From an archaeon (GTDB lineage: Archaea > Nanobdellota > Nanobdellia > Woesearchaeales > GW2011-AR9), in contig JAHFRS010000005.1 of NCBI GenBank assembly GCA_023266155.1, positions 1 to 22,394 on the forward strand: DNA of 22,394 nucleotides, given 5' to 3'. The notes under the pieces were generated by a model. The model saw only the letters and a program-made list of their open reading frames with translations. It had not been told where the DNA came from and made no database searches. Positions 485 through 17,772 of the stretch are shown here, piece after piece; positions within the stretch are counted from its first letter, which is position 1, and each line of letters opens with the position of its first letter. A program made the position numbers and the translations under genes.

Positions 485-1228
485 ATGGCAGCAGACCTCA
501 GCAAAGAGCAGCTTCTAGGAGAATTGGGCTTAAGCAAGAACGATTCTAAAGTCTATCTTACGTTGTTAAAAGATGGTCCCAATACCGTCACGGTGATTTC
601 AAAGAAAAGCGGCCTGCATCGGGCCAATGTCTATGGCACCTTAGAGCGATTAAAAGCGAAAGGTCTTGTCAGCGAGTACGTGGAACAGCTGAAACGGATT
701 TTTAGGGGGGCTGAACCGTCTATATTGGTTACGCTACTTCTAGAGAAAGAATTGAAATTGAAAGCGCTTCTGCCGCAATTCATGCTGGAACATCAACTTT
801 CACAAAAAAATAGCGTTGTGGAAGTTTATGAAAGCATCTCAGCTATTCGAAACATTTTTCATCATTATCTGGACCTTGGAGAAAATATTTATGCTTTTGG
901 CATACCTAAAATGGCCATAGATCTGGTTGGGGAGTATTTCCAGAATGTAATTCATAAGAAGAGGGCCAAACAAAAGCAATGGATGTATCACCTCTATAAC
1001 AGTAATGCCGTTGAAAGAATTAAGTTTCTCAACACTCTCCCCTACACCGAAGCCAGATATTTAGACTCCGAGTTTAATTCTCCTGTGGCCACGGTTATCT
1101 GTGGTGATGAATTAAGTATCATGTCGCTCAATGCGGATAGATGTATTCTCATTGTCATTAGAATCAAAGAAATGGCTGAAATTTATCAGAAATATTTTCA
1201 GATTTTATGGGTAAAAGCACAGAAATAG
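485..1228 (+). CDS. TrmB-family transcriptional regulator
   Basis: A 247-residue archaeal sugar- or metabolite-responsive type regulator. Residues about 8-75 form a TrmB-type winged helix-turn-helix: the LGLSKNDSKVYLTLLKDG opening is typical of the family, followed by a recognition-helix region (SKKSGLHRANVYGTLERL) and the wing (KGLVSEY). The remaining roughly 160 residues correspond to the C-terminal phospholipase-D-like sensor region seen in short TrmB proteins; the ligand cannot be inferred. The gene has its own TATA box and stands 91 bp upstream of a very long same-strand gene run, so it is the natural candidate for a local, possibly autoregulated, controller of that run. Family assignment is strong; the target genes are inferred from position. 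Confidence 0.88.
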   Translation: MAADLSKEQLLGELGLSKNDSKVYLTLLKDGPNTVTVISKKSGLHRANVYGTLERLKAKGLVSEYVEQLKRIFRGAEPSILVTLLLEKELKLKALLPQFMLEHQLSQKNSVVEVYESISAIRNIFHHYLDLGENIYAFGIPKMAIDLVGEYFQNVIHKKRAKQKQWMYHLYNSNAVERIKFLNTLPYTEARYLDSEFNSPVATVICGDELSIMSLNADRCILIVIRIKEMAEIYQKYFQILWVKAQK

Positions 1229-1262
1229 AATGGTTTACCATGAAGTAGTTAAAATAAAGAAA

Positions 1263-1276
1263 GGTTTATATATTGT
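1263..1276 (+). promoter_or_regulatory. TATA box driving the long kinase/leader-protein operon
   Basis: TTTATATATT at 1265-1274 is preceded by a purine-rich run (1255-1264). Initiation about 22-25 bp downstream would fall near 1297-1300, close to a strong Shine-Dalgarno-like stretch (GAGGGGTGAG, 1296-1305). No other promoter-sized gap occurs until about 16646, so this element probably drives the whole run. Confidence 0.55.
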
Positions 1277-1319
1277 ACTCTAGTTTATGATTTAAGAGGG
1301 GTGAGATTTGCTTGTATCC

Positions 1320-3731: not shown

Positions 3732-3736
3732 TAACC

Positions 3737-4921
3737 ATGGACTATGAAGAAGAACTAAAAGGATGGGAAATTAAAGGGAAAGCAGATGTTTATACGGTAA
3801 TCGAATATGTCGCTAAAGGAGGATTTGGGGAAATTTGGAAGGCGGAGAGAAAAAGTAACCATCAACCTGTCGCCATAAAAAAGTTGTTATCCAAGCACCG
3901 CAGTACATCCAGCAGTATTGACAAATTCTTCCAAGAGGGGGCATTAACAGAGAGATTAGACCATCCTAATATACTCCATACGTATGAAGTGGGTATAGAT
4001 CCAAAAAAGAATATCTGTTTTCTCGTAACAGATTTTCTTGACCATGATCTGAGTGTCTACCTTCGCAAAGAACGAGAGATAGACAGTTCCAGTGCCCAAA
4101 AAATAATCGTCCTCGTAGCTGAGGGCTTGCACTATGCTCATACCCAAGGAGTTCTCCATCGCGATGTTCATCCAAGGAATATTCTCATTGATAAAGACGG
4201 CCAGGTGTATTTGTCTGACTTTGGTATAGCAAAAGTGTTGGAGGAATCGCCGCTTAAGTCTAAGATTGATAATTTTTACTCGAACTGTGCAAGAGTTAGA
4301 ACGAAGGAAACGAGCTTAGAATCGGAGCTCGCAAAATTTGGTGTTACCGATACTGGGGATGCTGAAGATAGTGGTTCCAGGGAAATTATTTTTACCCTCG
4401 CACGTGGTAATCCCGCCTATGCTTCACTGGAGGTTCTCCGGAGAGGGATAAAAGTTGCAACGGCCAAGTCCGACCAGTTTTCTCTGGGTCAGGTTGCCTA
4501 TGAACTATTCAAAGTAATAGGAGATCAACGGTTATGTAAAGTAGCGGAAACAGCCATGAAAATTGATCCAGATACAAGATTTCCATCTGTTAACGACTTT
4601 AAAGAAACATTGCAAACGGTCCCCGATTACCTTCACCAGCTGCGCTCGTATCAAGACATCGGCAAAAGATTAGGCTTGGCAGAGCTGGAGCAGTTATATC
4701 AGCTGGCGCAGAAAGCCCATGTTGAAAATCCCGTCAACAAACCTTTGTTTCAGCCAATTTTAGGGCAAGTAGAAGATGAACAGGTCGCACAGTATGCCCA
4801 GTTTCTTGAGGAGTTGGTGCAGAACACAGGAAAAAAAGATATCCAACCAGCTGTTTTGGAATTACAAAAAAAAGTAGTGCCTGTACTGAGAGAAATTGAG
4901 AAGTTGGCCGGACGAACGTAA
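3737..4921 (+). CDS. Hanks-type (eukaryotic-like) Ser/Thr protein kinase
   Basis: A 394-residue soluble kinase. Visible motifs: glycine loop AKGGFGEIW (26-34), strand-3 lysine in VAIKK (K48), helix-C glutamate E67 or E72, catalytic loop LHRDVHPRNIL (140-150), DFG (161-163), GNPAYASLE as the APE-region equivalent, and SDQFSLGQVAYELF for subdomain IX. Two oddities stand out. The lysine of HRDxKxxN is histidine (H145). About 60 residues rich in Ser, Asp and Glu separate DFG from the APE-equivalent, much longer than usual. After the catalytic domain come about 100 helical residues with no membrane segment. It sits between the dehydrogenase/propeller gene and the array of leader proteins, 4 bp before the first of them, so those proteins are its most likely substrates or partners (inference). 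HRD and DFG are intact, so I expect activity, possibly altered. Confidence 0.9.
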   Translation: MDYEEELKGWEIKGKADVYTVIEYVAKGGFGEIWKAERKSNHQPVAIKKLLSKHRSTSSSIDKFFQEGALTERLDHPNILHTYEVGIDPKKNICFLVTDFLDHDLSVYLRKEREIDSSSAQKIIVLVAEGLHYAHTQGVLHRDVHPRNILIDKDGQVYLSDFGIAKVLEESPLKSKIDNFYSNCARVRTKETSLESELAKFGVTDTGDAEDSGSREIIFTLARGNPAYASLEVLRRGIKVATAKSDQFSLGQVAYELFKVIGDQRLCKVAETAMKIDPDTRFPSVNDFKETLQTVPDYLHQLRSYQDIGKRLGLAELEQLYQLAQKAHVENPVNKPLFQPILGQVEDEQVAQYAQFLEELVQNTGKKDIQPAVLELQKKVVPVLREIEKLAGRT

Positions 4922-4925
4922 AAAA

Positions 4926-5684
4926 ATGACTCAAGAACTTGATGATTTAGAACGGAAAGTCGGTTTATTAGCTGAGAATTCAAAACTTCGGGAAGAGCTT
5001 GAAAAGCTTCAGCAGGAGTTTGACAAAGTCCCGGCGCAATATAAGCCGAATTCTGATTCTAAATTTTCGGGACTTTTTGAAAAACATAAAAGCTTTTTTG
5101 AAGACTTATATACAATTTACAAACAAGAGTATAGTTATAAAATTGGGACCATTACAAGTCCGTCGAAAAAAGACGTCGAAAAATACTTTTCAGCATTACA
5201 TCCGGCAGATCAAGAACTTCTAGCATCAAAGGGGAAAAATACTTTGCTCATTTTTCTTGGAAAAGCAAGCAGAATTCATAATTATTACGTTAATGATTAT
5301 CACCAACACTGCCCCTCTCTTGAACCCTTAGGGGGGTTGGGGGGAGGTATAATCGGAACTTTAATAGGGACATCAGCGGCATCAGGAATTTGTTACACTC
5401 TTGGCATTGATATGATGTTAGGCCTTTCTATAGGTTTTCTTTGTGGTTTTAGTTTAGGGGCAATGGTTGGTGCAGTGAGTGGTTATAGAACTACTCAGTC
5501 CGATACCTACCTCAAAAAAGAAAGAGAATACGAAGATTATAAACAACGTCAGACTGACAAAGAACAGCAAGAGGTAACCGTTCACATTAACCATTATGCT
5601 CATGATTTAACAGAGATACATCTTTCTTCACAAAAAAGTGCAATACCAAGATACATTCTTGCAGAAAACGGGAGCAAAAAATGA
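4926..5684 (+). CDS. Leader protein A: coiled-coil leader plus glycine-zipper membrane hairpin
   Basis: A 252-residue protein, first of the leader array. ATG 4926 is chosen because it gives the shared leader MTQELDDLERKVGLL and lies 4 bp after the kinase stop; an upstream in-frame ATG at 4896 lies inside the kinase. Residues 1-37 form the leader coiled coil (L5, L8, V12, L15 spacing). Residues about 45-130 are helical (FEKHK near 51, LHPADQ, HNYY). Residues 135-186 are hydrophobic and strongly Gly/Ala-rich with GxxxG-type spacing, compatible with two tightly packed membrane helices. A charged helical tail (191-252) follows. It is paralogous to leader protein F over its whole length. Function unknown; glycine zippers occur in helix-packing and pore-forming membrane proteins, but nothing here proves a pore. 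Confidence 0.78.
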   Translation: MTQELDDLERKVGLLAENSKLREELEKLQQEFDKVPAQYKPNSDSKFSGLFEKHKSFFEDLYTIYKQEYSYKIGTITSPSKKDVEKYFSALHPADQELLASKGKNTLLIFLGKASRIHNYYVNDYHQHCPSLEPLGGLGGGIIGTLIGTSAASGICYTLGIDMMLGLSIGFLCGFSLGAMVGAVSGYRTTQSDTYLKKEREYEDYKQRQTDKEQQEVTVHINHYAHDLTEIHLSSQKSAIPRYILAENGSKK

Positions 5685-6202
5685 CCGCAGAACTTGACGA
5701 CTTAGAAGGGAAAGTTAATGCTTTATTGACTAAAATCAATGAAACAGGCATGAAAGCAGAATACGGCGTGGTATTACAAGATATTTTTGACTTACTGAAG
5801 ACCTGTTATGGGGAATTATCGGCTGTTAAGCAGGCTTTAGAGCAACACAACAGGAAGCCAGCAGCTGAAGTAACTGAATATAAACACTATTGTAATCCTG
5901 GGGTGTTGGGGGTAGAAGTTTATCATAATAGTGGTCGCGTTAACGGAGCAGAAGTTTATGTGTATTGCGTTGAAAATAAAATCAGTTTCTGTCTGAGAAC
6001 TGGTCCAAAAGAGTCCCTCTTTTCTCTAGGATCAAAAGTTGAGGGATATTGCCAAAGTAAGGGAAAACTCCCTGGCGGACGGTATCGGGTGTTGGTTTGT
6101 TGGGCAGGCATGACACAAGAAGAATACATTACTCTTGATTTTAACACGTTAGCGAGAATCATTCTCAGCAGAGAAGAAAAACTCATCCGTGCTCAAGAGT
6201 AG
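5681..6202 (+). CDS. Leader protein B: leader coiled coil plus beta-sandwich-like domain
   Basis: A 173-residue soluble protein. It overlaps the stop codon of A by ATGA, indicating translational coupling. Residues 1-55 are the leader (MTAELDDLEGKVNALL) and its coiled-coil extension, including a K-x-E-Y-G-x-V-L-x-x-I segment also present in C. Residues about 70-155 form a small all-beta domain with GVLGVEV at its start, KLPGGRYRV near 129-137 and a closing TLDF strand. This is the pattern of transthyretin/CNA-B/carboxypeptidase-regulatory-like sandwiches, where the PGG-Y-x-h segment forms a conserved turn. Six cysteines are present. There is no membrane segment, unlike C, which carries the same domain. 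Fold assignment is tentative. Confidence 0.72.
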   Translation: MTAELDDLEGKVNALLTKINETGMKAEYGVVLQDIFDLLKTCYGELSAVKQALEQHNRKPAAEVTEYKHYCNPGVLGVEVYHNSGRVNGAEVYVYCVENKISFCLRTGPKESLFSLGSKVEGYCQSKGKLPGGRYRVLVCWAGMTQEEYITLDFNTLARIILSREEKLIRAQE

Positions 6203-6211
6203 CAATAAAGA

Positions 6212-7420
6212 ATGGCCACAGCCCTTGACACTTTGGAACAGAAAGTTGCTGCCTTACTCCGAGCACTAGAAGAACAAGGATTAAAGCAGGAATATGGGAA
6301 CGTCTTACGGGAGATTCTACGTGAACTCCAGCAGTATCATGCTAAGATTGGATCTTTAAGAACAAATCTTGATCAGGTAGGGGAGGTATTACACCATGAA
6401 GTTGAATCAAATTATTCTGAGATTGAATCTTTGAAAACTGATCTTGAAAAGGTAGAAAAGGAGGTTTATGGTTCACTTGAATCTAAGATCAAATCTTTGG
6501 GATTAGAACTGGATATTTTCAAAGAAGAAATTGACTTTTTAAAGAGAACACCAGTAGCTAGTTTGAGTGATTTTAAAGAGGGGGTTTTGGGCGTTTTAGT
6601 AACTTCTCCTAATCGCAGTTTCGATCATCGGGAGGGAGTCCAAATTGAAGTATCTAATGGGAAAGAAATTGTTTATATGACAACAGCCTATCGCTATGGT
6701 TCCACTTATCATACCCAAGAAGCTGCCCATGGCTTCTGCGAAAGAAAATTACCGGGTGGAAATTATCAGCTGACGATTTATTACCCTCACAAAAGAATCA
6801 TGAACATTACTGTTGATGGCGATACTTATATGGACATAGATCTGGAGAAAAGACAGGAAATAGAACCCATTCAATTTACAGGAGCAGCAACTCCCATTTT
6901 GCCTTCACTACCTTCACCAGAATTACCTTCCGCTTCGATAATCACAACTCATTCTGTCGTAAGAACCTCATATTTTCATCAGACGGCAAATCGTGTTTCA
7001 TCGTTTTTCAAGAGACACGGTTTATTGCTGCTGGCGGGAACAGTGTTAGCTACTACTGGTGGTTACGGCGTATATCGAGTAGTCCAACGTCAAAGAATGA
7101 ATTCTTATTTTGAAGATGGTCAGGCAGAATTACGAGCTAATAATAATGAGGCTGCTATCAATGATTTTAATCAAGTCATTGCGCTCAATGCCGATAATGT
7201 TGAGGCGTATAACAATCGTGGCATTGCTCACTATAATCAGAAAGAGTACGCTGCTGCCTTGTCCGATTACAACCAAGCCATCGCTTTAAACCAAAACTTT
7301 TTTTACGCCTACCACAATAGAGCTTTAGTCTGGCAGGCAAAAGGGGAAACAGAAAAAGCAGCAAAAGACTTTGGAATGGAAGCAGTGATAAAACAAAGAG
7401 TTGGCCTGACCACACCATGA
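6212..7420 (+). CDS. Leader protein C: long coiled coil, beta-sandwich domain, membrane anchor, TPRs
   Basis: A 402-residue modular protein. Residues 1-112 are leader (MATALDTLEQKVAALL) and extended coiled coil. Residues about 118-212 are the beta-sandwich-like domain shared with B (GVLGVLV at 124-130, KLPGGNYQLTIY at 179-190). A Pro/Ser linker (225-242) leads to one membrane segment (269-291, LLLLAGTVLATTGGYGVYRV). Residues about 297-395 hold two clear TPRs plus a flanking helix pair (EAYNNRGIAHYNQKEYAAAL is one core). It overlaps D by ATGA. Basic residues lie on both flanks of the anchor, so topology is less certain here than in D and H. The architecture is a clear intermediate linking B (same sandwich) to E and G (anchor plus TPR). 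Confidence 0.8.
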   Translation: MATALDTLEQKVAALLRALEEQGLKQEYGNVLREILRELQQYHAKIGSLRTNLDQVGEVLHHEVESNYSEIESLKTDLEKVEKEVYGSLESKIKSLGLELDIFKEEIDFLKRTPVASLSDFKEGVLGVLVTSPNRSFDHREGVQIEVSNGKEIVYMTTAYRYGSTYHTQEAAHGFCERKLPGGNYQLTIYYPHKRIMNITVDGDTYMDIDLEKRQEIEPIQFTGAATPILPSLPSPELPSASIITTHSVVRTSYFHQTANRVSSFFKRHGLLLLAGTVLATTGGYGVYRVVQRQRMNSYFEDGQAELRANNNEAAINDFNQVIALNADNVEAYNNRGIAHYNQKEYAAALSDYNQAIALNQNFFYAYHNRALVWQAKGETEKAAKDFGMEAVIKQRVGLTTP

Positions 7421-8466
7421 GCAAAGAACTCGATGATTTAGAACAGCGCGCTAATCTGTTGGCAGAAAATATCGAGCTGCAAGAGAAAGAGCGGCAGTAT
7501 CTTCAAGACATCACCGGCTTGCGAGCTAAAGTCTCAGAATTGGAGAAAGAAGTTTCTCAATATTGTGGACCGAAGAAGGGACGAAGGGAGAAAGAACAGT
7601 TTAAGAGTGATCTTCTCAAATGGGCTGGTGATTCTTTTCGCAGTGATTATACTTTTATTATTAATCAAATTTTTAGTTTGTACAAAGGGAAACCTCTTCA
7701 AGTAGCCATGACCATACTAGAATCTGCAAAACAAAATTCATCATATCTGTCTAAAAAAGCCTCTGTCAGTAATGTGCAGGATTATATGCTCCAATTACTG
7801 AATAGCTTAAACAATAAAATTGTCGCTGACATAGTTAATAGTTATGGCTTGGATGTGGCGGAACATGTTTTCCAGTATGCCATTCAACACCACTATGACC
7901 GAACTGGTATTCAGAGTACAGCGGAAGAACTTTCAAACCAAAAAAGTTCAGAACAGCACCGTAAAAAAAAATCTTTTTTTGGTTTCTTGACTTTCGCTGC
8001 GTTGTTAAGCCTTACTGCCGTTGTTTCTTACCGCGGCTATCATTACGGCGGCCAGAGACTCCAGCGGGAAAAAGAGTTTATAGCTACGATGGTTAAATCT
8101 TTTCCACAGAGCGGTGAGCTGCAGGGTGCAGAGGGACGTTTTAAATACGATTTTTCTTGCCGTATTGGTGGCGATCCTAGTAACAGTTTCTTAGATAAGG
8201 TAATGGATGGGAATGCTGAAATAAAAAAGTTTGACGCGAGCATCATTGATGTCCCCTGGCAACTTTTTTCATCTATCGGGGAAAATTGTTATCGTACTGC
8301 TGGCAGTGCCGTTGTCTTTGAAAAGAGCCGTTCTGATGATGCTGATGATGAAGGCGAGTTTAACGAAAGAGGTACTTTTGACATCTGCTGCGAGAATGAT
8401 CACTGTTCGTTTGTTGTCAAAAGGGCTGCTGAGATGTACTGTCCAAAGTATGCGCGAGTGAAGTGA
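7417..8466 (+). CDS. Leader protein D: leader, helical-repeat piece, membrane anchor, Cys-rich outer domain
   Basis: A 349-residue protein. Leader MSKELDDLEQRANLL and coiled coil occupy 1-48. Residues about 60-165 are helical and contain SLYKGKPLQVAM (87-98) and NSYGLDVAEHVFQYA (141-155), motifs also found in I and J. A basic stretch RKKK (182-185) precedes a single membrane segment (187-205), so the positive-inside rule puts the N-terminal part, including the leader, in the cytoplasm. The final about 140 residues contain six cysteines (248, 291, 324, 325, 330, 342) and an acidic patch (307-316). Even cysteine number and external location fit a disulfide-stabilised domain, though pairing is inferred. 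Start codon overlaps the stop of C (ATGA). Function unknown. Confidence 0.75.
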   Translation: MSKELDDLEQRANLLAENIELQEKERQYLQDITGLRAKVSELEKEVSQYCGPKKGRREKEQFKSDLLKWAGDSFRSDYTFIINQIFSLYKGKPLQVAMTILESAKQNSSYLSKKASVSNVQDYMLQLLNSLNNKIVADIVNSYGLDVAEHVFQYAIQHHYDRTGIQSTAEELSNQKSSEQHRKKKSFFGFLTFAALLSLTAVVSYRGYHYGGQRLQREKEFIATMVKSFPQSGELQGAEGRFKYDFSCRIGGDPSNSFLDKVMDGNAEIKKFDASIIDVPWQLFSSIGENCYRTAGSAVVFEKSRSDDADDEGEFNERGTFDICCENDHCSFVVKRAAEMYCPKYARVK

Positions 8467-8474
8467 GTATCAAA

Positions 8475-9365
8475 ATGACTCAAGAACTTGATGATTTCGA
8501 ACGGAAAGTCCATTTATTGTTAGAGAATATTACCTCGCGAGAACGTGAAAAGAGCTTATCACTGGAGAATCAACAGTTACAGCAGCAAATACAGCAGCTT
8601 GAGAAAAAATTGAATTTGGCAACACCGCCATCGCCGAAGGAAGGAAAATCTGCTAATCCCAAAATATTCGCTAAGTGGGATAGTTATGTAGTTGCGGCTG
8701 GTTTCGTTATGGCACTGGGTTATGGCACTTATAAAAGTGTTCACTCCATTGCGGCTGGTTTTCATTATCACAAAGCAATAGATTTATATTATGATGATTC
8801 CTTTAAAGAAGCCATTGACGAGTTGACGCAAGTAATCGATAACGATCCAGAACATGTTGATGCCTACGTCCTAAGGGGAAGTGCTTTTGAACTTACCAAA
8901 AAATATGATTTGGCCTTCAAAGATCTCAATAAGGCCATCTCTTTTGATCCTCATAATCGCTGCGCTCTGCAATTTCGCGGATTTGCTCACTATTCTCTGG
9001 GAAATATGGATAACGCTATTAGCGATCTTAGTGAAGCACTCGAGCCATCAACATATAGTTCAAATTTTAATTGTAATTTTTCTGGTACAGAAAAAATTCG
9101 TTCATATAAGAAGCGAGGCCAATGTTTCTTTCGTCAAGGGAAATATGAACAAGCCATCAAAGATTATACTTCAGCTATCGATGTAACAAAACGGTATTCC
9201 TCTGATTTTCTCCTTCCTGATCGCTATAAATTTTATAGGCCGGAACTCTACCACCTGCGAGGAGAAGCGTGGGAGAAGAAAGGTGACTTGAAACAGAGCA
9301 GGGATGATGAGAAGCGGGCAAAAGAACTAGGATACCATGAGCCGGAGGGGAGCAGCGGAGAATGA
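8475..9365 (+). CDS. Leader protein E: leader coiled coil, membrane anchor, TPRs
   Basis: A 296-residue protein. A GTG at 8463 is in frame but lies inside the stop region of D; ATG 8475 gives the family start MTQELDDFERKVHLLLEN, so it is preferred. Residues 1-48 are leader and Gln/Leu-rich coiled coil; a Pro/Ser linker (50-60) leads to a weak membrane segment (about 70-95). Residues about 97-290 hold four or five TPR-type helix pairs, for example FKEAIDELTQVIDNDPEHVD and YEQAIKDYTSAID. It is paralogous to G. The last 36 residues and the underlying DNA are nearly identical to G, whereas the middle is well diverged, which points to recent recombination at the 3' end. It overlaps F by ATGA. Confidence 0.8.
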   Translation: MTQELDDFERKVHLLLENITSREREKSLSLENQQLQQQIQQLEKKLNLATPPSPKEGKSANPKIFAKWDSYVVAAGFVMALGYGTYKSVHSIAAGFHYHKAIDLYYDDSFKEAIDELTQVIDNDPEHVDAYVLRGSAFELTKKYDLAFKDLNKAISFDPHNRCALQFRGFAHYSLGNMDNAISDLSEALEPSTYSSNFNCNFSGTEKIRSYKKRGQCFFRQGKYEQAIKDYTSAIDVTKRYSSDFLLPDRYKFYRPELYHLRGEAWEKKGDLKQSRDDEKRAKELGYHEPEGSSGE

Positions 9366-9464
9366 CGACAGAACTTGATGATCTTGAAGAGAAGGTTAAC
9401 TTGTTAACTGAAAATCTAAAACTTCGTGAAGAGCTGGAGAAGCTGCAGCAAGAGTTTGACAAAG
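9258..9464 (+). repeat. 207-bp direct repeat, copy 1 (E/F junction)
   Basis: Covers the last 36 codons of E and the first 34 codons of F. It aligns without gaps to 10852-11058 (offset 1594) with about 11 mismatches. Flanking sequence diverges sharply on both sides although the genes are paralogous or share leaders, so the similarity is more recent than the gene duplications. Confidence 0.85.
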
Positions 9465-10066
9465 AGAGTTCTGGACCTTTGGCACTTTTTGAAAAACATA
9501 AAAGATTTCTGGATGATTTATATCAAATTTGCAAAAAAGATAATGGTCGTGGCCGCCTTCTTGACCTTAGCAATCCTTCGGCAACTCTCGAAAAATATTT
9601 CGCTAAATTACATTCCGCTAATCAAGCAATCTTAACACCACAGAAGAAAGAATATCTGAATGATTTTCTTCGAGAGGTACAGGTGCTTCATAATTATTAC
9701 ATTGGTGAAGATCAGAAATATCACGCTTATTACCTACTTGAACTTGAACCCTGTTATGGTCGGATTGTTGGATTATCATCTGGTTGTTTTTTGGGGATGG
9801 TCGGAAGTGCAGTAATTAATGATGTTTATCACATTGAGATCAACATATTTGTGGGCATTGCTCTGGGTGTAGGTTGGGGGGTAGTGGTGGGAGCATGTTG
9901 GGATTATGGAGTTACTCTGTTGTCTGATACTTACAAGAAAAAAAAAAGGGAATATCAAGACTTCAAAAAACTTCAAAATGACCAAGAACACTTAAGGCAA
10001 ATGGCTTTAATCGATCGTTATACTCACGGTTTAACGGAGATAGATCTGGCTTCGCAAAAAAGTTAA
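9362..10066 (+). CDS. Leader protein F: paralogue of A with glycine-rich membrane hairpin
   Basis: A 234-residue protein. Leader MTTELDDLEEKVNLLTEN continues into LREELEKLQQEFDK, as in A and H. Residues 42-125 match A in order (FEKHK, DLYQI, LEKYFAKLH, HNYY). Residues 133-186 are hydrophobic and Gly/Val/Ala-rich with small-xxx-small spacing (for example GIALGVGWGVVVGA), again compatible with a two-helix membrane hairpin. A charged helical tail ends with GLTEIDLASQKS, matching DLTEIHLSSQKS of A. The short loop between the two hydrophobic stretches contains His, Glu and Asp and probably faces the other side of the membrane. Function unknown. Having two diverged copies in one operon suggests distinct subunits rather than a fresh duplication. 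Confidence 0.78.
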   Translation: MTTELDDLEEKVNLLTENLKLREELEKLQQEFDKESSGPLALFEKHKRFLDDLYQICKKDNGRGRLLDLSNPSATLEKYFAKLHSANQAILTPQKKEYLNDFLREVQVLHNYYIGEDQKYHAYYLLELEPCYGRIVGLSSGCFLGMVGSAVINDVYHIEINIFVGIALGVGWGVVVGACWDYGVTLLSDTYKKKKREYQDFKKLQNDQEHLRQMALIDRYTHGLTEIDLASQKS

Positions 10067-10071
10067 GAAAA

Positions 10072-10959
10072 ATGACCAAAGAAAAACTTGATGAATTGGA
10101 AAGGAAAGTTAACTTGTTATCAGAGAATATTTCCTTACGAGAACGAGAACTTAAATTATCAGAAGAAAATAAACAATTGAAAGGCAAAATTCACCAATTA
10201 GAGAAACTCGTTTCACCTGCTTCTGAACCATCATCGGAGAAAGCTCCAGAAGGCTTGGTGAAAGGCTTAACTGCTCTTGTGGCTGCGGGTATTTTGGCTC
10301 TAATGGGCTATGGGATTTATAACAGTTACATTTCGGATGGTTCACACTACAATAAGGCCAGAAAATTAGGTCAGAAAGAACAAGTATTAGACTACCCGAG
10401 AAATCATCTGGAAGTATATGATGATGAATTCCCTAACAAATTCGAACAGGCTATGGCTGAATTAGATGAAGTCATTCGCCTTAATCCTAAAGATGCGGAT
10501 GCCTACGAACGGCGAGGAGATTTTTTCTCTACATTTAAAGAATATAAAAGTGCGATTCGTGATTATGACGTAGCTATCGCTATCAATCCGAAGGAGGAAT
10601 TGTATTGGGTAAGCCGGGGCCTTGCGCACTGTAAACTAGGTAATAACGATGCAGGAATTGATGATTTTAATAAAGCGGTAACTTTATCAGCTGACCGGAA
10701 GGTACTATCGGTTGGCCGGAAAGCCTTGCTGCACCAAAGAAATGGTGAATTTTTTTCCTGCCTTCAGAGTTATAGTGAAGCGATTGAAGAGTATACGGCA
10801 GCTCTGGAACTGTGCCCTAATGATTTTTCTCCCGCCTATCTCTATCATCTACGAGGAGAAGCGTGGGAGAAGAAAGGTGACTTGAAACAGAGCCGGGATG
10901 ATGAGAAGCGGGCAAAAGAATTAGGATACCATGAGCCGGAGGGGAGCAGCGGAGAATGA
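10072..10959 (+). CDS. Leader protein G: leader coiled coil, membrane anchor, TPRs
   Basis: A 295-residue paralogue of E. Residues 1-46 are leader (MTKEKLDELERKVNLLSEN; one extra residue relative to the others) and coiled coil. A linker (48-60) precedes a good membrane segment (63-86, ending LALMGYGIYNSY). Residues about 90-290 carry about four TPR-like helix pairs, such as FEQAMAELDEVIRLNPKDAD and YKSAIRDYDVAIAINPKEE, plus one near the end. The last residues, from HLRGEAWEKKGDLK to GSSGE, match E exactly. It starts 5 bp after F and overlaps H by ATGA. TPRs are protein-interaction scaffolds, so a role in complex assembly is likely; the partner is unknown. Confidence 0.8.
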   Translation: MTKEKLDELERKVNLLSENISLRERELKLSEENKQLKGKIHQLEKLVSPASEPSSEKAPEGLVKGLTALVAAGILALMGYGIYNSYISDGSHYNKARKLGQKEQVLDYPRNHLEVYDDEFPNKFEQAMAELDEVIRLNPKDADAYERRGDFFSTFKEYKSAIRDYDVAIAINPKEELYWVSRGLAHCKLGNNDAGIDDFNKAVTLSADRKVLSVGRKALLHQRNGEFFSCLQSYSEAIEEYTAALELCPNDFSPAYLYHLRGEAWEKKGDLKQSRDDEKRAKELGYHEPEGSSGE

Positions 10960-11058
10960 CGACAGAACTAGACAGTCTTGAAGAGAAGGTTAACTTGTTA
11001 ACTGAAAATCTAAAACTTCGTGAAGAGCTTGAAAAGCTTCAGCAGAAGTTTGACAAAG
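10852..11058 (+). repeat. 207-bp direct repeat, copy 2 (G/H junction)
   Basis: Covers the end of G and the leader of H, and matches 9258-9464 at about 95 percent by eye. Most mismatches cluster in the leader part: four near the Asp-Ser codons and five in the LEKLQQ codons. The LEKLQQ block instead matches the corresponding stretch of A (about 4981-5042). Confidence 0.85.
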
Positions 11059-12287
11059 TTCCAGCGCAATATCGAAGTACTGCTGTTTCTGATTCTTCAG
11101 CACTTTTTGAAAAACCAAAATTACCTCGGAGAAAACATCTGCTGTATGCCGGTATGGGGTTACTATTGAGTGCTTCAGCTCTCTTTATATACTTTCAATT
11201 CAGACCAGCGGATATACTCGACAATCAACGTGGTGTTTCTACACCTAGCCGGGCCGGTAAAGTTATTGCCAAAGCGGCGGAACCATCCGAGCCTAATTCC
11301 ATCTCTTCCGCACGGGGGTATGAATTTAATGACCCCATTGATCTGGAAATAAGAGATGATAAAGCTGGCGAACCAGTGGTCTATGTTTACGATAAAGCAA
11401 CGGGAAGCCTGCACCGCTTTTCTAATTCTGAACCATTTCATTCCATAGGGAAATATGGCTCTCAACCAAATCCTACAACTAAACAATCTTCGCCCTTCAC
11501 GAAAGCATTTTCTCTCAATGAAGAAGGGAAAAAAGTTACCGTTGATAATTTTGATGGTACTGTTACCAGTTATCAACTCCCAGATTTACATTTTTTACAG
11601 CGAGAATACGGAACTATTCTCAATGATGATCAGGTTCGAGATATTTGTGATAGGATAGAACCAATGAAAAAGAGCTTGAATGAATTTATTACCAGGAATC
11701 TTGAGAAGATAGTGTCTAATTACGAGCACTCTCAATCTAACCTGGAAAAAAATTTTTCAGCAGAGTTAATTGAAAAATGTCGAGATAAATATGCCGCCAA
11801 CTTATACGCTCAAGATTATTCTGTCAATCGCTATTTCTACAGCAATTCCCCAGACCATCTTCCCAGTGATATTTTCGGACAAAATTTTTCTGCTGGTTCA
11901 TTTAGATGGGCAGTTCGTGAATATATTGAACGGCAACTTGCGGTGCAACCACCTACTTATTATACTCTGTTAAATGATGCTCCCTCACGATTTCCTGTTA
12001 AATTTACTCGTGTCCTGGCTTTCAAAACTGTTTCTGCCGATGTTCATAGATGCGGCTTTTTACCTGTCATCGGCTTTAATGATACCGAAGAAGTAGCGAT
12101 GTTCGGCTATATCTGTAATAATGGTGATCTGGAACTACAGCAAAAAATTCCGTATCACAGTTTGGCAATAACAAAATCTACTGCCGCGAATCTTATTGAT
12201 GTGTTTGCTTATAGGAATGATTTGTACTTATTAGAGCAAGGTTCAAAGAAAATTAAAAGAATCTGGGTGCTCCCTGATAAAAAATAA
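10956..12287 (+). CDS. Leader protein H: leader, single membrane anchor, large unassigned outer domain
   Basis: A 443-residue protein. Leader MTTELDSLEEKVNLLTEN and LREELEKLQQKFDKVPAQY occupy 1-39. A basic stretch (PRRK, 57-60) precedes one membrane segment (61-82), giving a predicted cytoplasmic leader and an outer domain of about 360 residues. That domain begins with a low-complexity Ser/Pro/Ala linker, contains a beta-rich part (VVYVYDKATGSLHRF near 130) and ends with a segment rich in beta strands (RVLAFKTVSADVHRCGFLPVIGF, read in part). I recognise no family. The leader is a mosaic: its 5' DNA matches F and its 3' DNA matches A. It ends 1 bp before the start of I. Confidence 0.72.
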   Translation: MTTELDSLEEKVNLLTENLKLREELEKLQQKFDKVPAQYRSTAVSDSSALFEKPKLPRRKHLLYAGMGLLLSASALFIYFQFRPADILDNQRGVSTPSRAGKVIAKAAEPSEPNSISSARGYEFNDPIDLEIRDDKAGEPVVYVYDKATGSLHRFSNSEPFHSIGKYGSQPNPTTKQSSPFTKAFSLNEEGKKVTVDNFDGTVTSYQLPDLHFLQREYGTILNDDQVRDICDRIEPMKKSLNEFITRNLEKIVSNYEHSQSNLEKNFSAELIEKCRDKYAANLYAQDYSVNRYFYSNSPDHLPSDIFGQNFSAGSFRWAVREYIERQLAVQPPTYYTLLNDAPSRFPVKFTRVLAFKTVSADVHRCGFLPVIGFNDTEEVAMFGYICNNGDLELQQKIPYHSLAITKSTAANLIDVFAYRNDLYLLEQGSKKIKRIWVLPDKK

Positions 12288-12288
12288 C

Positions 12289-13950
12289 ATGACCAAAGAA
12301 CTCGATGAATTGGAAAAGAAGGTTGATGCCCTATTACACGATGTAGAAACGAAACTAAGATTCACGGAGAATTCAGCAGCGCTAATGACGTTAGGAGAAG
12401 TTGCTTCGACATCGAGAGATACGCCGGTGATTGAATATGCCAGCACAGCACTTTCACACTATGAAGGCGAATCTTTCAAGGTCGTAGATGAATTTATTAA
12501 AGAGATTGTGAAAGAAGATGTAAAGAGAAGTGATAAATGGCTCCCTTTCTATATCGGTCAACTTCAAAGAAAAGAAGCGATTGAATATGCCCGAAAAAAT
12601 GGTCCAGAAAAGTTAAGATCAGCCATTGGGCTCCTTCAATTCTGCCCTGATAGTGTCGTTTTCAAGACACTTTCACAGTATTCAGGAAAATCTTTGGATG
12701 CTATTCTTGGCAAATTTAATAATCATACTTTACCTTCGGACCAGGCATACCATGTCTTTCAGGCTCTCGATAACCACTCCATTCAGAATACCATTTTCTG
12801 TGGATACAGCTCTACTCCAGAACATGAAGAAGCTAAGATCCTCCTCGACTTTATCTTTATCTACGCCGGCAGGAAAGATTTGCCAGAGATTGCGGAATCT
12901 GTACGTGACCTATTCTATAATTACGACGGAAAGTCATATGAAGCTTTGGTACGTTACATTAATGAATTAACCAGCGAAAAAGTAAATTCTGATGTTCTCT
13001 CCTTAGGAACATTCGAGGCATTAAATGACAAATTGGTAGCTCATGTTGCTGATAATTATGGGGAAGAAGCCTTTAACTCAATACTCCAAACCGCAAGAAA
13101 GAGGGCAGATTTGGATCTGGTTAAAACGGTGGCAAGCTGCATAAAGAAGGACTTTTGGCCAGCCACAGGGAAAACGGTTGCTGGCTATACCGAATTAATA
13201 ATGGATTTAATCCACAGAGGAATAGCTGAAGAGGAAGCTGGCGATTATCTCGATAAAATAAAGTCTCTCGATCCATCCATCACTTGGACTTTATCATGGT
13301 ATGAAGGGATTGATTGTCTCAGTGAACACCAGAACTTTTCATCTGGAATTGACTTGTTTACCAAAGAGATTGTCGCAAATCCACAACACACTGAAGCCTA
13401 TTTTAATCGGGGATTATGTAAATATTTTATCCTAAAACGTAGAGCAAATCTTCCTCTGAAAGATAAAGTGAGATACGACTACGATGGTGGTAAAGATTGG
13501 GACGGTGATTATAAAGATGTCATTGATGATCTCTCTAAAGCCATTGAATTAGAACCAAATAATGTGGAGGCTTATTATCAGAGGGGGCGTGCCCGTTTTG
13601 AGCAGGATCTCACAGAAAGGCGTTTATTTGGAGATGCTCTCCAAGACTTTCAGAAAGCCATTGAACTGAATCCGCAGCTTGCTGATGCTCACTTGTACGA
13701 AGGAAGAGCCTTCTTTGAATTGGCTCAAGACGATGATGATAGGAATAATGGTGATGGTACTGATTATGGCTTTGTTTATAACCATTTTTGTGGCATGGCC
13801 TTGAGTGCTTTGACAAGAGCAATTGAGATTCAACCTAACCTCGGCGAAGCTTATTATTATCGTCATTTCGTATGGGAAGGGTTGGGGGAGAAAGATAAAG
13901 CACAAGCCGATGGTGCTAAAGCAAAAGAGTTAGGATACAAAAATGACTAA
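12289..13950 (+). CDS. Leader protein I: leader, helical repeats with YxGxxL motif, TPRs, Asp-rich loops
   Basis: A 553-residue protein with no membrane segment. Leader MTKELDELEKKVDALL is followed by helical repeats (about 45-330) marked by HYEGESFKVV (58-66), QYSGKSLDAIL (130-140) and NYDGKSYEALV (211-221), a KNGPEKL segment (103-109) and DNYGEEAFNSIL (255-266). The same motifs recur in J and partly in D. Residues 335-553 contain about five TPRs interrupted by unusually acidic insertions at 396-409 and 481-493 (runs of Asp, Gly and Asn), which look like metal-binding loops. It overlaps J by 8 bp. Probably a large cytoplasmic scaffold; function inferred only from repeats. Confidence 0.76.
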   Translation: MTKELDELEKKVDALLHDVETKLRFTENSAALMTLGEVASTSRDTPVIEYASTALSHYEGESFKVVDEFIKEIVKEDVKRSDKWLPFYIGQLQRKEAIEYARKNGPEKLRSAIGLLQFCPDSVVFKTLSQYSGKSLDAILGKFNNHTLPSDQAYHVFQALDNHSIQNTIFCGYSSTPEHEEAKILLDFIFIYAGRKDLPEIAESVRDLFYNYDGKSYEALVRYINELTSEKVNSDVLSLGTFEALNDKLVAHVADNYGEEAFNSILQTARKRADLDLVKTVASCIKKDFWPATGKTVAGYTELIMDLIHRGIAEEEAGDYLDKIKSLDPSITWTLSWYEGIDCLSEHQNFSSGIDLFTKEIVANPQHTEAYFNRGLCKYFILKRRANLPLKDKVRYDYDGGKDWDGDYKDVIDDLSKAIELEPNNVEAYYQRGRARFEQDLTERRLFGDALQDFQKAIELNPQLADAHLYEGRAFFELAQDDDDRNNGDGTDYGFVYNHFCGMALSALTRAIEIQPNLGEAYYYRHFVWEGLGEKDKAQADGAKAKELGYKND

Positions 13951-15916
13951 AGCACGTGAAGAACTGGAACGGAAAGTTGATCTGCTGCTCCAGCAAATGG
14001 AACAAGCAGCAAAATATAATTCTCCGGCCATGGATATTCTACAGCAGATAGCGATAGAGAATAAGGGAACTTTAATGCCGCAGATCGCTAATATTTGTTC
14101 ACGATATGCTGGGCCTAATCTCGAAATTGTTTTAAGCTCTTTACGAAACACCAATGGAAATAATTTTGAAAGTCTTCTTGTTGCTCTCCAGAGCGATGCC
14201 GCCGTTGACTTTGCTGCCAAAAATGGAGCAGAAAAATTAGAACCTGTTTTAGATTTAATATATAAAATGATTAGTAATAGTAATTATACTGCTCTTTTTG
14301 AACTGGTTAACCGCTATGAAGGAGAGAATTTAACCTCAGTACTGGCCACACTCAAAAAAACGAGTGGGGGATTTTTGATAAAGTCGCCTGGTTCTCTGGA
14401 AGGAGTTATGGCCGTACTTAATCAGGAATTGGTCGCTAACACCATAAAATCGTCTCCACAGAAAGCCCAGTTACTCTTAGAATTGGCATCTACTAGCCAG
14501 AATCCAGCACTGGTCAGAGCGATGGCCGAACTTCTGGGAAGATATTCTGGAGAAGTATTGGAGATCATCACCACAACCTCTCGCTCGTATGATATTAAAA
14601 GATTGGAACTATTAACCGATACTTTTACTGATGAATACATAGCCCAGGTTGCCAATAATTATGGGGAAAAAGCACTGCGCAGCTTAATTGACACTGCCGC
14701 AAAAGGTAAAAGTGCCGTGAGAACTCTCGCCTTTGGCATTCAGCAAACTTTTGCTCCACAGCAGGGAAATCGTGATTTTTTCTATAAAAGCGGTGAAACT
14801 TGGCTCGAACAGGGTTGCCTAGATGAAGCGATCAGCAATTTTAGCGTGGTAATCAAATTCTTTTCTAGTGATTCTGAAGTGTGTGGTGATCGAGGTAGAG
14901 CTTATTTACGGAAAAATTTCTACGATGAAGCACTCGCCGATTTTGCTGCAGTAATCAAATTAGATCCAAGAAATGATGCTGCTTTCCACAATAGGGGGCT
15001 AGCACATGCTGCTAAAAATGAACATGATAAAGCCATTCTTGATTTTAGTGAGGCCATCAAACTAGATTCTGATTATCTGGGATCTTATCATCAGCGTGGC
15101 AAGAGCTATTTTGAGTTGAAGGAATATACAAAGGCAGCCCAAGATTTCAGTGAAGTAATTCGGAGGGATCAAAAACATGCTTCTGCGTATATGGAACGTG
15201 GTAAATCCTATTTAGCATGGCAGGGGTATGGTGGATGGGGTGCGGGAAGTGGGCGGAATGAGCAGGCGATTCTCGATTTTAGCCGAGTAGTTCAGTTGGA
15301 GCGCCATAATTATAGTGCCTATTACCATCGTGGTTTAGCCCAATATCATCTGAAGCGGTTTGATTCGGCAATCAAGGATTTCAGCGAAGCTATTCGTATA
15401 AATCCGCAGAATTCTGAGGCCTATCATCTCCGCGGTCAAGCACGGTATTATAAACGAAAATATGATAAAGCAATACGCGATTACAATAAGGTTATAGAAT
15501 TAGAACCCCAAAATGCTTCTGCCTATTATAATCGTGGTTTAGCATGGCTTGAGAAAAGCGTTTTTCGGAGAGGCGGTTATGGTGCAAGTGAACATGATGT
15601 TCAGGATGCTCAGGATGATTTTAGTACCGCCATTGGTCTCAATCCGAAGTTTACCGATGCCTATTTTCAGCGTGGGAGCTTGTTTTATCGCCTCGACAAA
15701 CATACTGAAGCCATTGCTGATTATACCGAGGTGATTAAATTGGATGGCCGGCATGACACCGCGTATTATAATCGAGGACTCGCAAAGTTTTATAGAAAGC
15801 AATATGGTGATGCCCGTGAAGCTAAAAAAGATTTTCAGCGAGCACTGGCACTCAATTCTCGGCATACCAAGGTAGAAGAATTTTTGAAGAAGATTGAAAC
15901 AATAATGGCTTCCTGA
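13943..15916 (+). CDS. Leader protein J: leader, helical repeats with YxGxxL motif, about ten TPRs
   Basis: The largest leader protein (657 residues), soluble. Leader MTKAREELERKVDLLLQQ uses Ala-Arg-Glu in place of Glu-Leu-Asp, as in K. Residues about 30-270 are helical repeats related to I: RYAGPNLEIVL (54-64), RYEGENLTSVL (124-134), RYSGEVLEII (200-209), AKNGAEKLEPVLDLI (92-106) and NNYGEKALRSLI (238-249). From about 278 to 650 there are about ten TPRs, most with the core A-Y-x-x-R-G (for example SAYYHRGLAQYHLKRF). Two TPRs carry Gly/Trp- or Gly/Arg-rich insertions (WQGYGGWGAGSGR; VFRRGGYGASEH). Canonical TPR spacing makes this part very confident. A multivalent scaffold is the likely role. 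Confidence 0.8.
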   Translation: MTKAREELERKVDLLLQQMEQAAKYNSPAMDILQQIAIENKGTLMPQIANICSRYAGPNLEIVLSSLRNTNGNNFESLLVALQSDAAVDFAAKNGAEKLEPVLDLIYKMISNSNYTALFELVNRYEGENLTSVLATLKKTSGGFLIKSPGSLEGVMAVLNQELVANTIKSSPQKAQLLLELASTSQNPALVRAMAELLGRYSGEVLEIITTTSRSYDIKRLELLTDTFTDEYIAQVANNYGEKALRSLIDTAAKGKSAVRTLAFGIQQTFAPQQGNRDFFYKSGETWLEQGCLDEAISNFSVVIKFFSSDSEVCGDRGRAYLRKNFYDEALADFAAVIKLDPRNDAAFHNRGLAHAAKNEHDKAILDFSEAIKLDSDYLGSYHQRGKSYFELKEYTKAAQDFSEVIRRDQKHASAYMERGKSYLAWQGYGGWGAGSGRNEQAILDFSRVVQLERHNYSAYYHRGLAQYHLKRFDSAIKDFSEAIRINPQNSEAYHLRGQARYYKRKYDKAIRDYNKVIELEPQNASAYYNRGLAWLEKSVFRRGGYGASEHDVQDAQDDFSTAIGLNPKFTDAYFQRGSLFYRLDKHTEAIADYTEVIKLDGRHDTAYYNRGLAKFYRKQYGDAREAKKDFQRALALNSRHTKVEEFLKKIETIMAS

Positions 15917-15932
15917 TTATTGACCATTGACC

Positions 15933-16544
15933 ATGACCAAAGCCCGTGAAGAATTGGAACAAAGAATAAATCTCTTGTTAGCGAATGTTAAACTAACTGA
16001 AAAAGTCAGTGCACTGGAAAAAAAAGATCTCGCCACACAAGAAGCGTATCGTCTGGCTCAACTGTGGGGACAGAGGAACTATCCATGCCTCATTCAGTAT
16101 GCTCAGGAAGTTCTCGAGCGAGATGTTCACAACTTCTTTGCCCATTATTATCGGGGGTTAGCCTTCCGCCGTCGGCAAAAATATGATGAGGCCATTCAGG
16201 ATTTCACCGCCGCGATTGATCTAAGACCGTATGGTGACTTTTACCTGCAGCGAGGCATCGCCTGGGCGCATAAACAAGAATGGGTCAAGGCCATACAGGA
16301 TTACCAAACCGTGCAGCAGTTAGCCCCCCATTATGCTGATGCCTATCTCTGGGAAGGACGGGCCTGGCAGGAGATGGGAAATCTGGAGAAAGCAATTCAG
16401 AATTACGATCAAGCCCTGCACTATAAACCTGGCTATTGGGTTGCCTATCGTGACCGCGGTGTCGCCTGGCAGAAAAAAGGGAATAAAAAGCAGGCGCAGG
16501 AAGATCTGGCGAAAGCACGGAAATTAAAGCCAAAAGAAAAATGA
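15933..16544 (+). CDS. Leader protein K: leader plus TPR domain
   Basis: A 203-residue soluble protein. ATG 15933 gives the family start MTKAREELEQRINLLLANVK; a TTG at 15927 is in frame but adds only two residues. Residues 1-34 are leader coiled coil. From about 36 to the end are about four TPRs, including YYRGLAFRRRQKYDEAIQDF and YLWEGRAWQEMGNLEKAIQN. There is no membrane segment. It starts 16 bp after J, the largest gap in the array, and overlaps the small ORF L by ATGA. Its leader is closest to those of J and L, so the J-K-L end of the array looks like a sub-lineage. The GC content is visibly higher than in the middle of the array. Confidence 0.82.
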   Translation: MTKAREELEQRINLLLANVKLTEKVSALEKKDLATQEAYRLAQLWGQRNYPCLIQYAQEVLERDVHNFFAHYYRGLAFRRRQKYDEAIQDFTAAIDLRPYGDFYLQRGIAWAHKQEWVKAIQDYQTVQQLAPHYADAYLWEGRAWQEMGNLEKAIQNYDQALHYKPGYWVAYRDRGVAWQKKGNKKQAQEDLAKARKLKPKEK

Positions 16545-16645
16545 CGGAAGAGAGAGAAGAGCTGGAAGAGAAAATTAATCTATTGTTAGCACAAATAGAA
16601 AACCAGAAGATGAAGTTCAGGCTCGGCGGTTACGGTTTCAGCTAA
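16541..16645 (+). CDS. Leader peptide L: bare 34-residue array leader
   Basis: A short ORF overlapping the K stop codon by ATGA, encoding MTEEREELEEKINLLLAQ followed by 16 more residues and TAA at 16643-16645. It carries the full array leader, closest to K and J, but no body. The last residues (KFRLGGYGFS) resemble nothing else in the array. Either this is the relic of a twelfth gene whose body was lost, or it is a real stand-alone coiled-coil peptide that caps or competes for leader-mediated assembly. The intact start, the coupled overlap and the conserved leader argue that it is or recently was translated. The downstream 100 bp do not continue the protein in another frame in any way I can recognise. 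Confidence 0.6.
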   Translation: MTEEREELEEKINLLLAQIENQKMKFRLGGYGFS

Positions 16646-16662
16646 AAGATATATAACGCCGG

Positions 16663-16721
16663 TGTAGTCCTGAACAGTATACCAGCAATTTATAATCTCC
16701 GGAAACAAATTACGGACTACA
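16663..16721. promoter_or_regulatory. Promoter region with inverted TGTAGTCC ... GGACTACA flanking a TATA box
   Basis: TGTAGTCC (16663-16670) and its exact reverse complement GGACTACA (16714-16721) bracket a TATA-like TTTATAAT (16689-16696). The right half-site sits about where transcription should start. This layout fits an operator that controls the downstream glycoside-hydrolase-like gene. The left half-site motif reappears at 17715-17722. Confidence 0.45.
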
Positions 16722-16736
16722 ATATTTAATGCAAAA

Positions 16737-16781
16737 ATGAACATCACCAACTATGGATCTACCATCGACCAGGTGTCCTGA
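16737..16781 (+). CDS. Possible 14-residue upstream mini-ORF
   Basis: ATG 16737 to TGA 16779-16781 encodes MNITNYGSTIDQVS, and its stop overlaps the ATG of the next gene (TGATG). It lies between the predicted transcription start and the hydrolase-like gene, so it could couple or tune translation. With so few codons it may also be chance. Confidence 0.25.
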   Translation: MNITNYGSTIDQVS

Positions 16782-17692: not shown

Positions 17693-17714
17693 CCACGACG
17701 CTCCCGATTCCCCC

Positions 17715-17747
17715 TGTAGTCCCCTTCACTACACCGCTTTTATATAA
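17715..17747 (+). promoter_or_regulatory. Inverted repeat and TATA box upstream of the PIN-like gene
   Basis: TGTAGT (17715-17720) pairs with ACTACA (17728-17733), 4 bp upstream of a TATA box TTTATATAAA (17738-17747). The ATG at 17773 is 26 bp after the TATA box, so the transcript is probably leaderless. The repeat would overlap the BRE/TFB contact region, a typical position for an archaeal repressor site. Confidence 0.5.
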
Positions 17748-17772
17748 AGCACATAACCTTAGCTGATGTTGT

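Follow-up and report, generated by a model that had tools for sequence, protein, structure and literature searches.

A tandem gene array in a Woesearchaeales archaeon whose twelve members share a short N-terminal leader, a module copied between different bodies and a possible docking helix

Contig JAHFRS010000005.1 (C147; 22,394 nucleotides, the whole of which is the window analysed here) belongs to the metagenome-assembled genome (MAG) GCA_023266155.1 of an archaeon of the order Woesearchaeales. On its + strand, between nucleotide positions 4926 and 16645, lie twelve consecutive open reading frames (g1 to g12) that open with variants of one short peptide, M-T-x-E-[LR]-[DE]-[DE]-L-E-x-[KR]-[VI]-x-[LA]-L, termed here the leader. 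At the level of sequence, the comparisons below show the leader to be a real module with common ancestry, conserved as a peptide and copied between bodies, in an array that is built from few body modules and tightly packed on the same strand. The leader may be a short docking helix that co-assembles a membrane-anchored scaffold of tetratricopeptide repeat (TPR) proteins, a proposal held here at about even confidence.

A common leader in all twelve genes had been claimed in a preliminary description of this stretch, and both alignment and hidden Markov model (HMM) tests confirm it. M1, E9 and L15 are invariant in the 12-row alignment (12/12), and L8 is nearly so. With the addition of a copy found on a second contig of the same genome (C144, described below), there are 13 leaders. 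Position 5 is L in nine of these and R in four, position 8 is L in 12 and F in one, position 12 is V or I in 12, position 15 is L in all 13, and position 19 is I, L or V in 11. The hydrophobic positions show a 3-4 spacing, which we take to be a canonical a/d run.

Tests against chance were made with leave-one-out HMMs, where near-identical sisters of g1, g5, g6 and g8 were also dropped from training. All 13 leaders outscore every member of a first background set, which contains 270 N-termini (152 distinct, most from the same genome). This background is contaminated in the conservative direction, as its best item is the leader remnant on C144 in 11 of 13 rounds. The 13 leaders also score above the two best listed among 5000 composition shuffles (pooled), and above a second background, taken from loci in other genomes, of 1685 distinct N-termini (best other 20.0 bits versus 23.1–46.8 bits), several of these loci having been chosen for weak leader look-alikes. 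A fair control for a random coiled coil is a shuffle of the same leader that keeps the hydrophobic/polar pattern, and every one of the 13 beats 1000 of 1000 such shuffles. The narrowest margins are those of g1 (28.3 versus 26.0 bits, pattern shuffles) and g3 (23.1 versus 19.6 bits, first background and pooled shuffles). Similarity no better than that of random coiled coils, which the preliminary description had named as the result that would speak against a shared leader, was therefore not found. In addition, a scan for shared N-termini among open reading frames of at least 90 amino acids detected 40 pairs in 10 genes of the window versus no pairs in 22 of 22 related-genome loci; 20 of these loci are regions around kinase matches in relatives and two are flank loci, and the scan is limited to those regions.

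Structural modelling of g2, the one member modelled (AlphaFold2, AF2, on two sequences), predicts that the leader is helical over residues 3–22, with a predicted local distance difference test score (pLDDT) of 76–87 for the block; the model is poor past residue 55 (mean pLDDT 51). Coiled-coil families, for example bZIP and ZapB, give the profiles nearest to the leader, all of them weak. The best Pfam match over the 13 leaders is bZIP_1 (E = 0.0017; 18.9 bits, cut-off 27.6 bits), and the best NCBIfam match has E = 0.0027. The known coiled-coil families do not reach their curated cut-offs, scores and cut-offs being given for the first member only. A 3.5-residue periodicity was compared with composition shuffles in four leaders; 0.8% of shuffles are as high as g10 and 3.4% as high as g2.

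The leader is conserved as a peptide, because silent sites are largely randomised and near saturation while residues are kept, and because similarity sets in at the ATG and dies away by about codon 20. Mean pairwise DNA identity, determined on 11 of the 12 window leaders (g7 was omitted for its insertion), is 0.32 in the 30 nucleotides before the ATG and 0.25–0.31 further upstream; it is 0.70 over codons 1–10, 0.53 over codons 11–20 and 0.33 over the next 30 nucleotides. Over 78 leader pairs, with the C144 copy included, agreement is 0.61 at the first, 0.73 at the second and 0.47 at the third codon position. Where two leaders have the same residue (750 codon pairs), the fraction of identical codons is 0.508, versus 0.409 expected from codon usage.

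Some leader pairs are nearly identical in DNA. The g6 and g8 leaders have 16 of 18 same-residue codons identical and those of g1 and g5 have 13 of 14, in both cases on unrelated bodies. The g1/g5 likeness is 0.97 in the first 30 nucleotides and 0.63 in the next 30, with 0.40 before and 0.33 after, and g8 is like g1 to about residue 55, where a different body follows. DNA self-comparison also reveals a 219-nucleotide duplication on the + strand. One copy (9246..9464) comprises the 3′ end of g5 and the leader of g6, and is 94% identical to the other (10840..11058), which comprises the 3′ end of g7 and the leader of g8. The block thus crosses a gene junction, and takes in the g6/g8 leader tract together with the 3′ end of the TPR gene that precedes it. 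Because near-identical leader codons are found on unrelated bodies and the block extends over the junction, front ends must have been exchanged; g6/g8 and g1/g5 are, as judged by their codons, recent exchanges of this type.

A search of the same MAG with a profile of the 12 leaders (E ≤ 10) gave 14 matches, i.e. the 12 training leaders and two on C144, a contig of 3079 nucleotides. The full leader copy on C144, which is outside the profile training, has E = 5.4e-11, and the second match covers 12 residues (E = 0.013). At the edge of C144 lies a leader gene, and behind it a second start codes for no more than the initial 12 residues of a leader. This 12-codon remnant is read here as continuing into another gene, one with a TATA-like sequence of its own. 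At positions 2354–1734 (minus strand) the remnant is in frame with the downstream gene and lies across the apparent TATA box of that gene. Body-less leaders, namely g12 and the C144 remnant, may be the expected leftovers of exchange between leader repeats, or they may be functional short peptides.

The bodies that follow the leaders had been called unrelated. They do differ, but the term is an overstatement, as there are four homologous pairs, six bodies with TPRs and few recurring modules. The pairs are g1/g6 (39% over 224 columns), g5/g7 (42% over 291 columns), g9/g10 (24% over 564 columns) and g2/g3 (25% over 126 columns, E = 1.6e-5 in a small set). TPRs are recognised by Pfam in six of the 12 members (g3, g5, g7, g9, g10 and g11), and g4 weakly matches the g9/g10 repeat (E = 0.0011, 13-protein set). 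Hydropathy peaks of at least 1.5, termed membrane-like here, are present in g1, g4, g6, g7 and g8 (5/12) and in the C144 protein; g3 and g5 are below this threshold, and a hydrophobic stretch is seen by eye in both. No enzyme family was recognised among the bodies by Pfam.

All members of the array are on the + strand. The first, g1 (4926..5684), has the leader, a coiled coil and a Gly-rich membrane-like segment, as determined by alignment and hydropathy, with a Pfam DUF3482 match below the cut-off (E = 0.0016). A search of 5.8 billion proteins with g1 returned only g1 itself and g6 (859 candidates scored). In g2 (5681..6202) the leader helix (residues 3–22) is followed by a second helix (residues 25–55) and a probable beta-sandwich (Pfam Mfa2 below the cut-off, E = 0.0034); the AF2 model is too weak for the beta domain to be named from structure. 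A g2-like beta domain is also found in g3 (6212..7420), between a coiled coil and TPRs (Pfam, pairwise comparison). The g4 product (7417..8466) has a helical region weakly like the g9/g10 repeats, one membrane-like segment and a C-terminus without assignment; Pfam gave no match. The TPR domain of g5 (8475..9365) is homologous to g7 (Pfam, alignment), and g6 (9362..10066) has a Gly-rich membrane-like hairpin homologous to g1 (alignment, hydropathy). The g7 leader (10072..10959) contains one inserted Lys, and the body has a membrane-like segment and TPRs (Pfam, alignment, hydropathy). The leader and front end of g8 (10956..12287) are of the g1/g6 type, as shown by DNA and protein comparison, and are joined to a membrane-like segment (hydropathy) and an orphan body; Pfam gave no match to this body, and only a weak leucine-zipper match at the front. 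Helical repeats followed by TPRs are found in g9 (12289..13950), which is homologous to g10 (13943..15916), where the TPR array is long (Pfam, alignment). The leader of g11 (15933..16544) is followed by TPRs (Pfam), and g12 (16541..16645) is a 34-residue leader-only open reading frame without a body, which has a 4-nucleotide overlap with g11 (open reading frame list, alignment).

Tight packing of most of these genes had been described, by ATGA overlap or within 16 bp, and this is correct. Five of the 11 junctions are 4-nucleotide ATGA overlaps, one is an 8-nucleotide overlap and five are gaps of 1–16 nucleotides. The overlaps of 4, 4, 4, 4, 8 and 4 nucleotides are within g1-g2, g3-g4, g5-g6, g7-g8, g9-g10 and g11-g12, and gaps of 9, 8, 5, 1 and 16 nucleotides separate the six overlapping pairs. 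Since overlaps alternate strictly with gaps, the arrangement suggests two-gene units. With six overlaps distributed randomly over the 11 junctions, strict alternation would be one of 462 arrangements; it should be pointed out that this figure is post hoc and uncorrected, and that the g5-g6 and g7-g8 overlaps are not independent, as they have a common duplication origin.

The array is part of a longer + strand series (485–16645), which begins with a TrmB-family transcriptional regulator (485..1228; Pfam TrmB, E = 5.8e-16). Next is an 803-residue protein (1320..3731) that lacks the leader and has a lactate/malate dehydrogenase (LDH/MDH)-like NAD-binding fold followed by a beta-propeller, an assignment based on AF2, Foldseek and homologues. 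This is a rare fusion. The best AF2 model, on six sequences, has a mean pLDDT of 80.9 (the other four models have 59–68), and Foldseek matches are to lactate/malate dehydrogenases (TMt about 0.65–0.74) and to beta-propellers. Five homologues were found, with 36–44% identity and 99–100% query coverage (7992 candidates scored). No homologue was found among other genomes of the order (sets of 144 and 335) or of a class sample (377), nor in a second phylum sample of 237 genomes, which was without the own genome as a positive control; these sets overlap. Contig collections gave 96 genome-contig and 160 viral-contig pattern matches, none of which was confirmed. A Hanks-type Ser/Thr protein kinase (3737..4921; Pfam Pkinase, E = 3.3e-35), also without the leader, ends 4 nucleotides ahead of the array. 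As expected of a Hanks kinase, it is similar to numerous kinase families, MAD6 and PD-T4-6 among them. Assignment as a defence-system kinase was rejected; the NCBIfam MAD6 score of 95.9 bits is far below the cut-off of 460 bits, and PADLOC matches come without cut-offs. PADLOC on eight of the 12 leader proteins gave weak LmuB, PbeC, PglZ and TPR matches only (E from 0.00015 to 0.0059). A viral origin was likewise not adopted. Among 10 proteins compared with the PHROGs, which include five of the 12 leader proteins, only the TPR part of g9 has a strong match (E = 9.3e-16), and g4 has a weak one (E = 0.0054).

Downstream of the array, the next gene (16781) lacks the leader. The GC content is 0.47 and 0.50 in the two kilobases 16001–18000, compared with 0.38–0.43 in the rest of the window. 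This region spans g11, g12 and two genes (16781–17692 and 17773–18513) that have no Pfam, NCBIfam or PHROG match. Further downstream, on the minus strand, a gene for 255 amino acids without assignment (19574–20338) overlaps an Asp/Glu/cysteate racemase-like gene (18892–19581).

The preliminary description had looked to related genomes for conservation of the tandem arrangement. This was not borne out: no convincing leader was found in the genomes sampled, and the second locus found is the partial one on C144 in the same genome. Weak matches are present in 11 of 59 relatives (E from 0.0099 to 0.085), and these were rejected. Ten of the 11 are not at a methionine start when read in frame; the remaining one (E = 0.047) begins one residue after an ATG, is without the T-x-E-L start and stands alone. 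One genome of the same genus (85% complete) gave no leader match. At E ≤ 0.001, none of 351 other genomes of the order matched, and in the phylum sample the one match among 370 others (E = 0.0027) was discarded as coiled-coil-like; it covers model positions 9–42 in an open reading frame of 89 amino acids that adjoins what we take to be succinyl-CoA-synthetase-like genes. Pattern matches in a genome-contig collection (13) and in viral contigs (419 and 17) were not confirmed. A protein search with the leader region returned only itself among 26 candidates scored; this search is insensitive, as other leaders of the window were also missed. All these negative results are limited by the shortness of the motif. 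Since no convincing leader was found in relatives or in the order and phylum samples, the array is, as far as seen, lineage-restricted and not widespread, so it would be young, transferred in, or lost elsewhere.

No description of the layout or context of the leader array was found in the titles and abstract beginnings listed for open-licence papers, and the array can be compared with several known systems. NLRs and effectors encoded by adjacent genes can carry amyloid signalling motifs, which are about 20–30 residues long and form beta-amyloid; the leader is similarly a short motif common to neighbouring genes, but is predicted to be helical and is charged. Polymorphic toxin systems have a common N-terminus, variable C-terminal toxin domains and immunity genes. 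Pfam detects no toxin domain in the 11 leader proteins that have a body, with the C-termini of g4 and g8 remaining without assignment. The VARTIG modules of Thermococcales consist of an upstream large protein and changing downstream genes that share modules and recombine, and in this the two archaeal loci are alike; VARTIG, however, shares Ig domains, of which the large protein has a hypervariable one at its C-terminus, whereas the leader array shares an N-terminal helix and the body is the variable part (PMC8416519).

Closer parallels are the effector-associated domains (EADs) of bacterial NTP-dependent conflict systems and the encapsulation peptides of bacterial microcompartments (BMCs). EADs are small, mostly helical, non-enzymatic modules on diverse proteins of adjacent genes; neighbouring copies are closest to each other, homotypic contact is proposed to couple the parts, and TPRs and propellers occur in one related system (PMC7159879). 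The leader is also a small non-enzymatic module, predicted to be helical (g2, the one member modelled), on several proteins of a locus, with copies that are closest within it. EADs are domains, however, with a copy fused to a core component (VMAP of MoxR-vWA systems; GTPase systems) (PMC7159879), whereas the leader, of about 20 residues, is shorter than a domain. Pfam (E ≤ 0.01) detected no such core component in any of the 11 body-bearing leader proteins, and neither the kinase nor the propeller protein of the locus has a leader. Encapsulation peptides are amphipathic helices of 18–20 residues, usually N-terminal, on otherwise different proteins (PMC7221423). The length and predicted helix of the leader fit, while the periodicity is clearly above shuffles in two of the four leaders tested and not clearly so in the other two; the bodies differ, being TPR scaffolds, membrane-like proteins and domains without assignment. 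The leader array would thus work like encapsulation peptides or EAD adaptors, while departing from each in a defining feature, and is grouped here with the known principle of adaptor-tag sharing.

The preferred reading is that the subunits are tagged with one N-terminal helix of about 18–22 residues, a two-heptad, leucine-zipper-like segment that is often followed by more coiled coil. These helices would pair with each other, or be seated in the TPR grooves of six subunits. TPR proteins and membrane-anchored members might thereby be joined in a membrane-associated scaffold beside the kinase and the LDH-like/propeller protein, and the adjacent kinase could regulate docking of the membrane-anchored and soluble members. 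The set presumably grew and diversified by front-end recombination, whereby a leader-bearing start is copied onto new bodies, a process that may have left the body-less leader at the end of the array and the shortened one on C144. Docking itself, as well as co-transcription, helix pairing, membrane anchoring, complex formation, the kinase link and any signalling role, is inferred. A broader form of the proposal, which is possible and is put forward tentatively, is an expandable plug-in assembly with the docking helix as an interchangeable front end, where bodies join by recombination, the array ends in a free plug, and overlapping gene pairs may set the stoichiometry of partners in a kinase-associated membrane scaffold. 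Several observations weigh against a docking helix. The leader profile matches neither the kinase nor the propeller protein. Periodicity is not clearly above shuffles in g6 (12%) or in the C144 copy (13%). The strictly conserved part is only about two heptads, with Arg at the first hydrophobic position in four of 13 leaders, which is short for a stable stand-alone zipper. Silent sites are not fully saturated, and thus part of the leader likeness is due to recent copying. Lastly, the sampled genomes (59 relatives, 351 others of the order and 370 others of the phylum sample, in overlapping sets) gave no convincing leader.

An alternative, considered unlikely, is that the leaders are the ancestral N-terminus of one diversifying family of paralogues, kept alike by exchange, with no mutual docking. 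The clear front-end copying, the homologous body pairs, and the body-less and shortened leaders all agree with such a relic. Against it, residues are kept in most pairs although silent sites are near saturation, and the similarity runs only from the start codon to about codon 20, both of which indicate selection on the peptide; the leader also persists on different bodies. The leader could also be a one-sided targeting tag, recognised as a cargo signal by some separate receptor or shell, and not a homotypic docking helix. Its length, N-terminal place and predicted helix do resemble the 18–20-residue amphipathic encapsulation peptides (PMC7221423). This reading is nevertheless rather improbable. 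The BMC shell domain PF00936 was not found in the one genome concerned, which is 82.7% complete (the control matched in two of 14 named genomes; encapsulin shells were not searched). Moreover, several leader proteins have membrane-like segments, and such segments are unusual for lumen cargo.

That a nucleic-acid element, such as a translation coupling signal, promoter or recombination site, lies behind the conservation is hardly credible; the tight gene overlaps, the position of the block at gene starts and the near-identical DNA of some pairs might be expected of it, yet the second codon position agrees best and the third worst, little is conserved before the ATG, and an Rfam scan gave no family at the gathering score. 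A chimeric or foreign contig in the MAG is very unlikely as well. In favour of an artefact, the genome (1.19 Mb) is in 186 contigs, is 82.66% complete and has 5.56% contamination, and both the array and the propeller gene are missing from sampled relatives. Against an artefact are the end of an EF-2 gene on the contig, which is an archaeal sign (TIGR00490, E = 1.1e-14), the independent leader copy on C144, and a protein cluster of g1 with two member sequences (longest contig 3366 nucleotides), read as a possible second assembly. In addition, the gene at 21510 and the BtpA gene in the right flank have partners, 50% and 53% identical, together on one contig of a same-family genome. BtpA is present in only four of 39 other relatives searched, and judged by these two partners the contig belongs near this family.

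If the leader is a docking helix, the array would be a compact natural example of many different modules being recruited to a single archaeal assembly by one short peptide, and the exchanges behind it can still be seen in the DNA. The origin of multi-subunit scaffolds by sharing of a tag would then be directly testable, and a ready set of graded helix pairs would be at hand. If it is only a relic, the array would still document clearly how front ends were shuffled within a tandem gene family of an archaeon.

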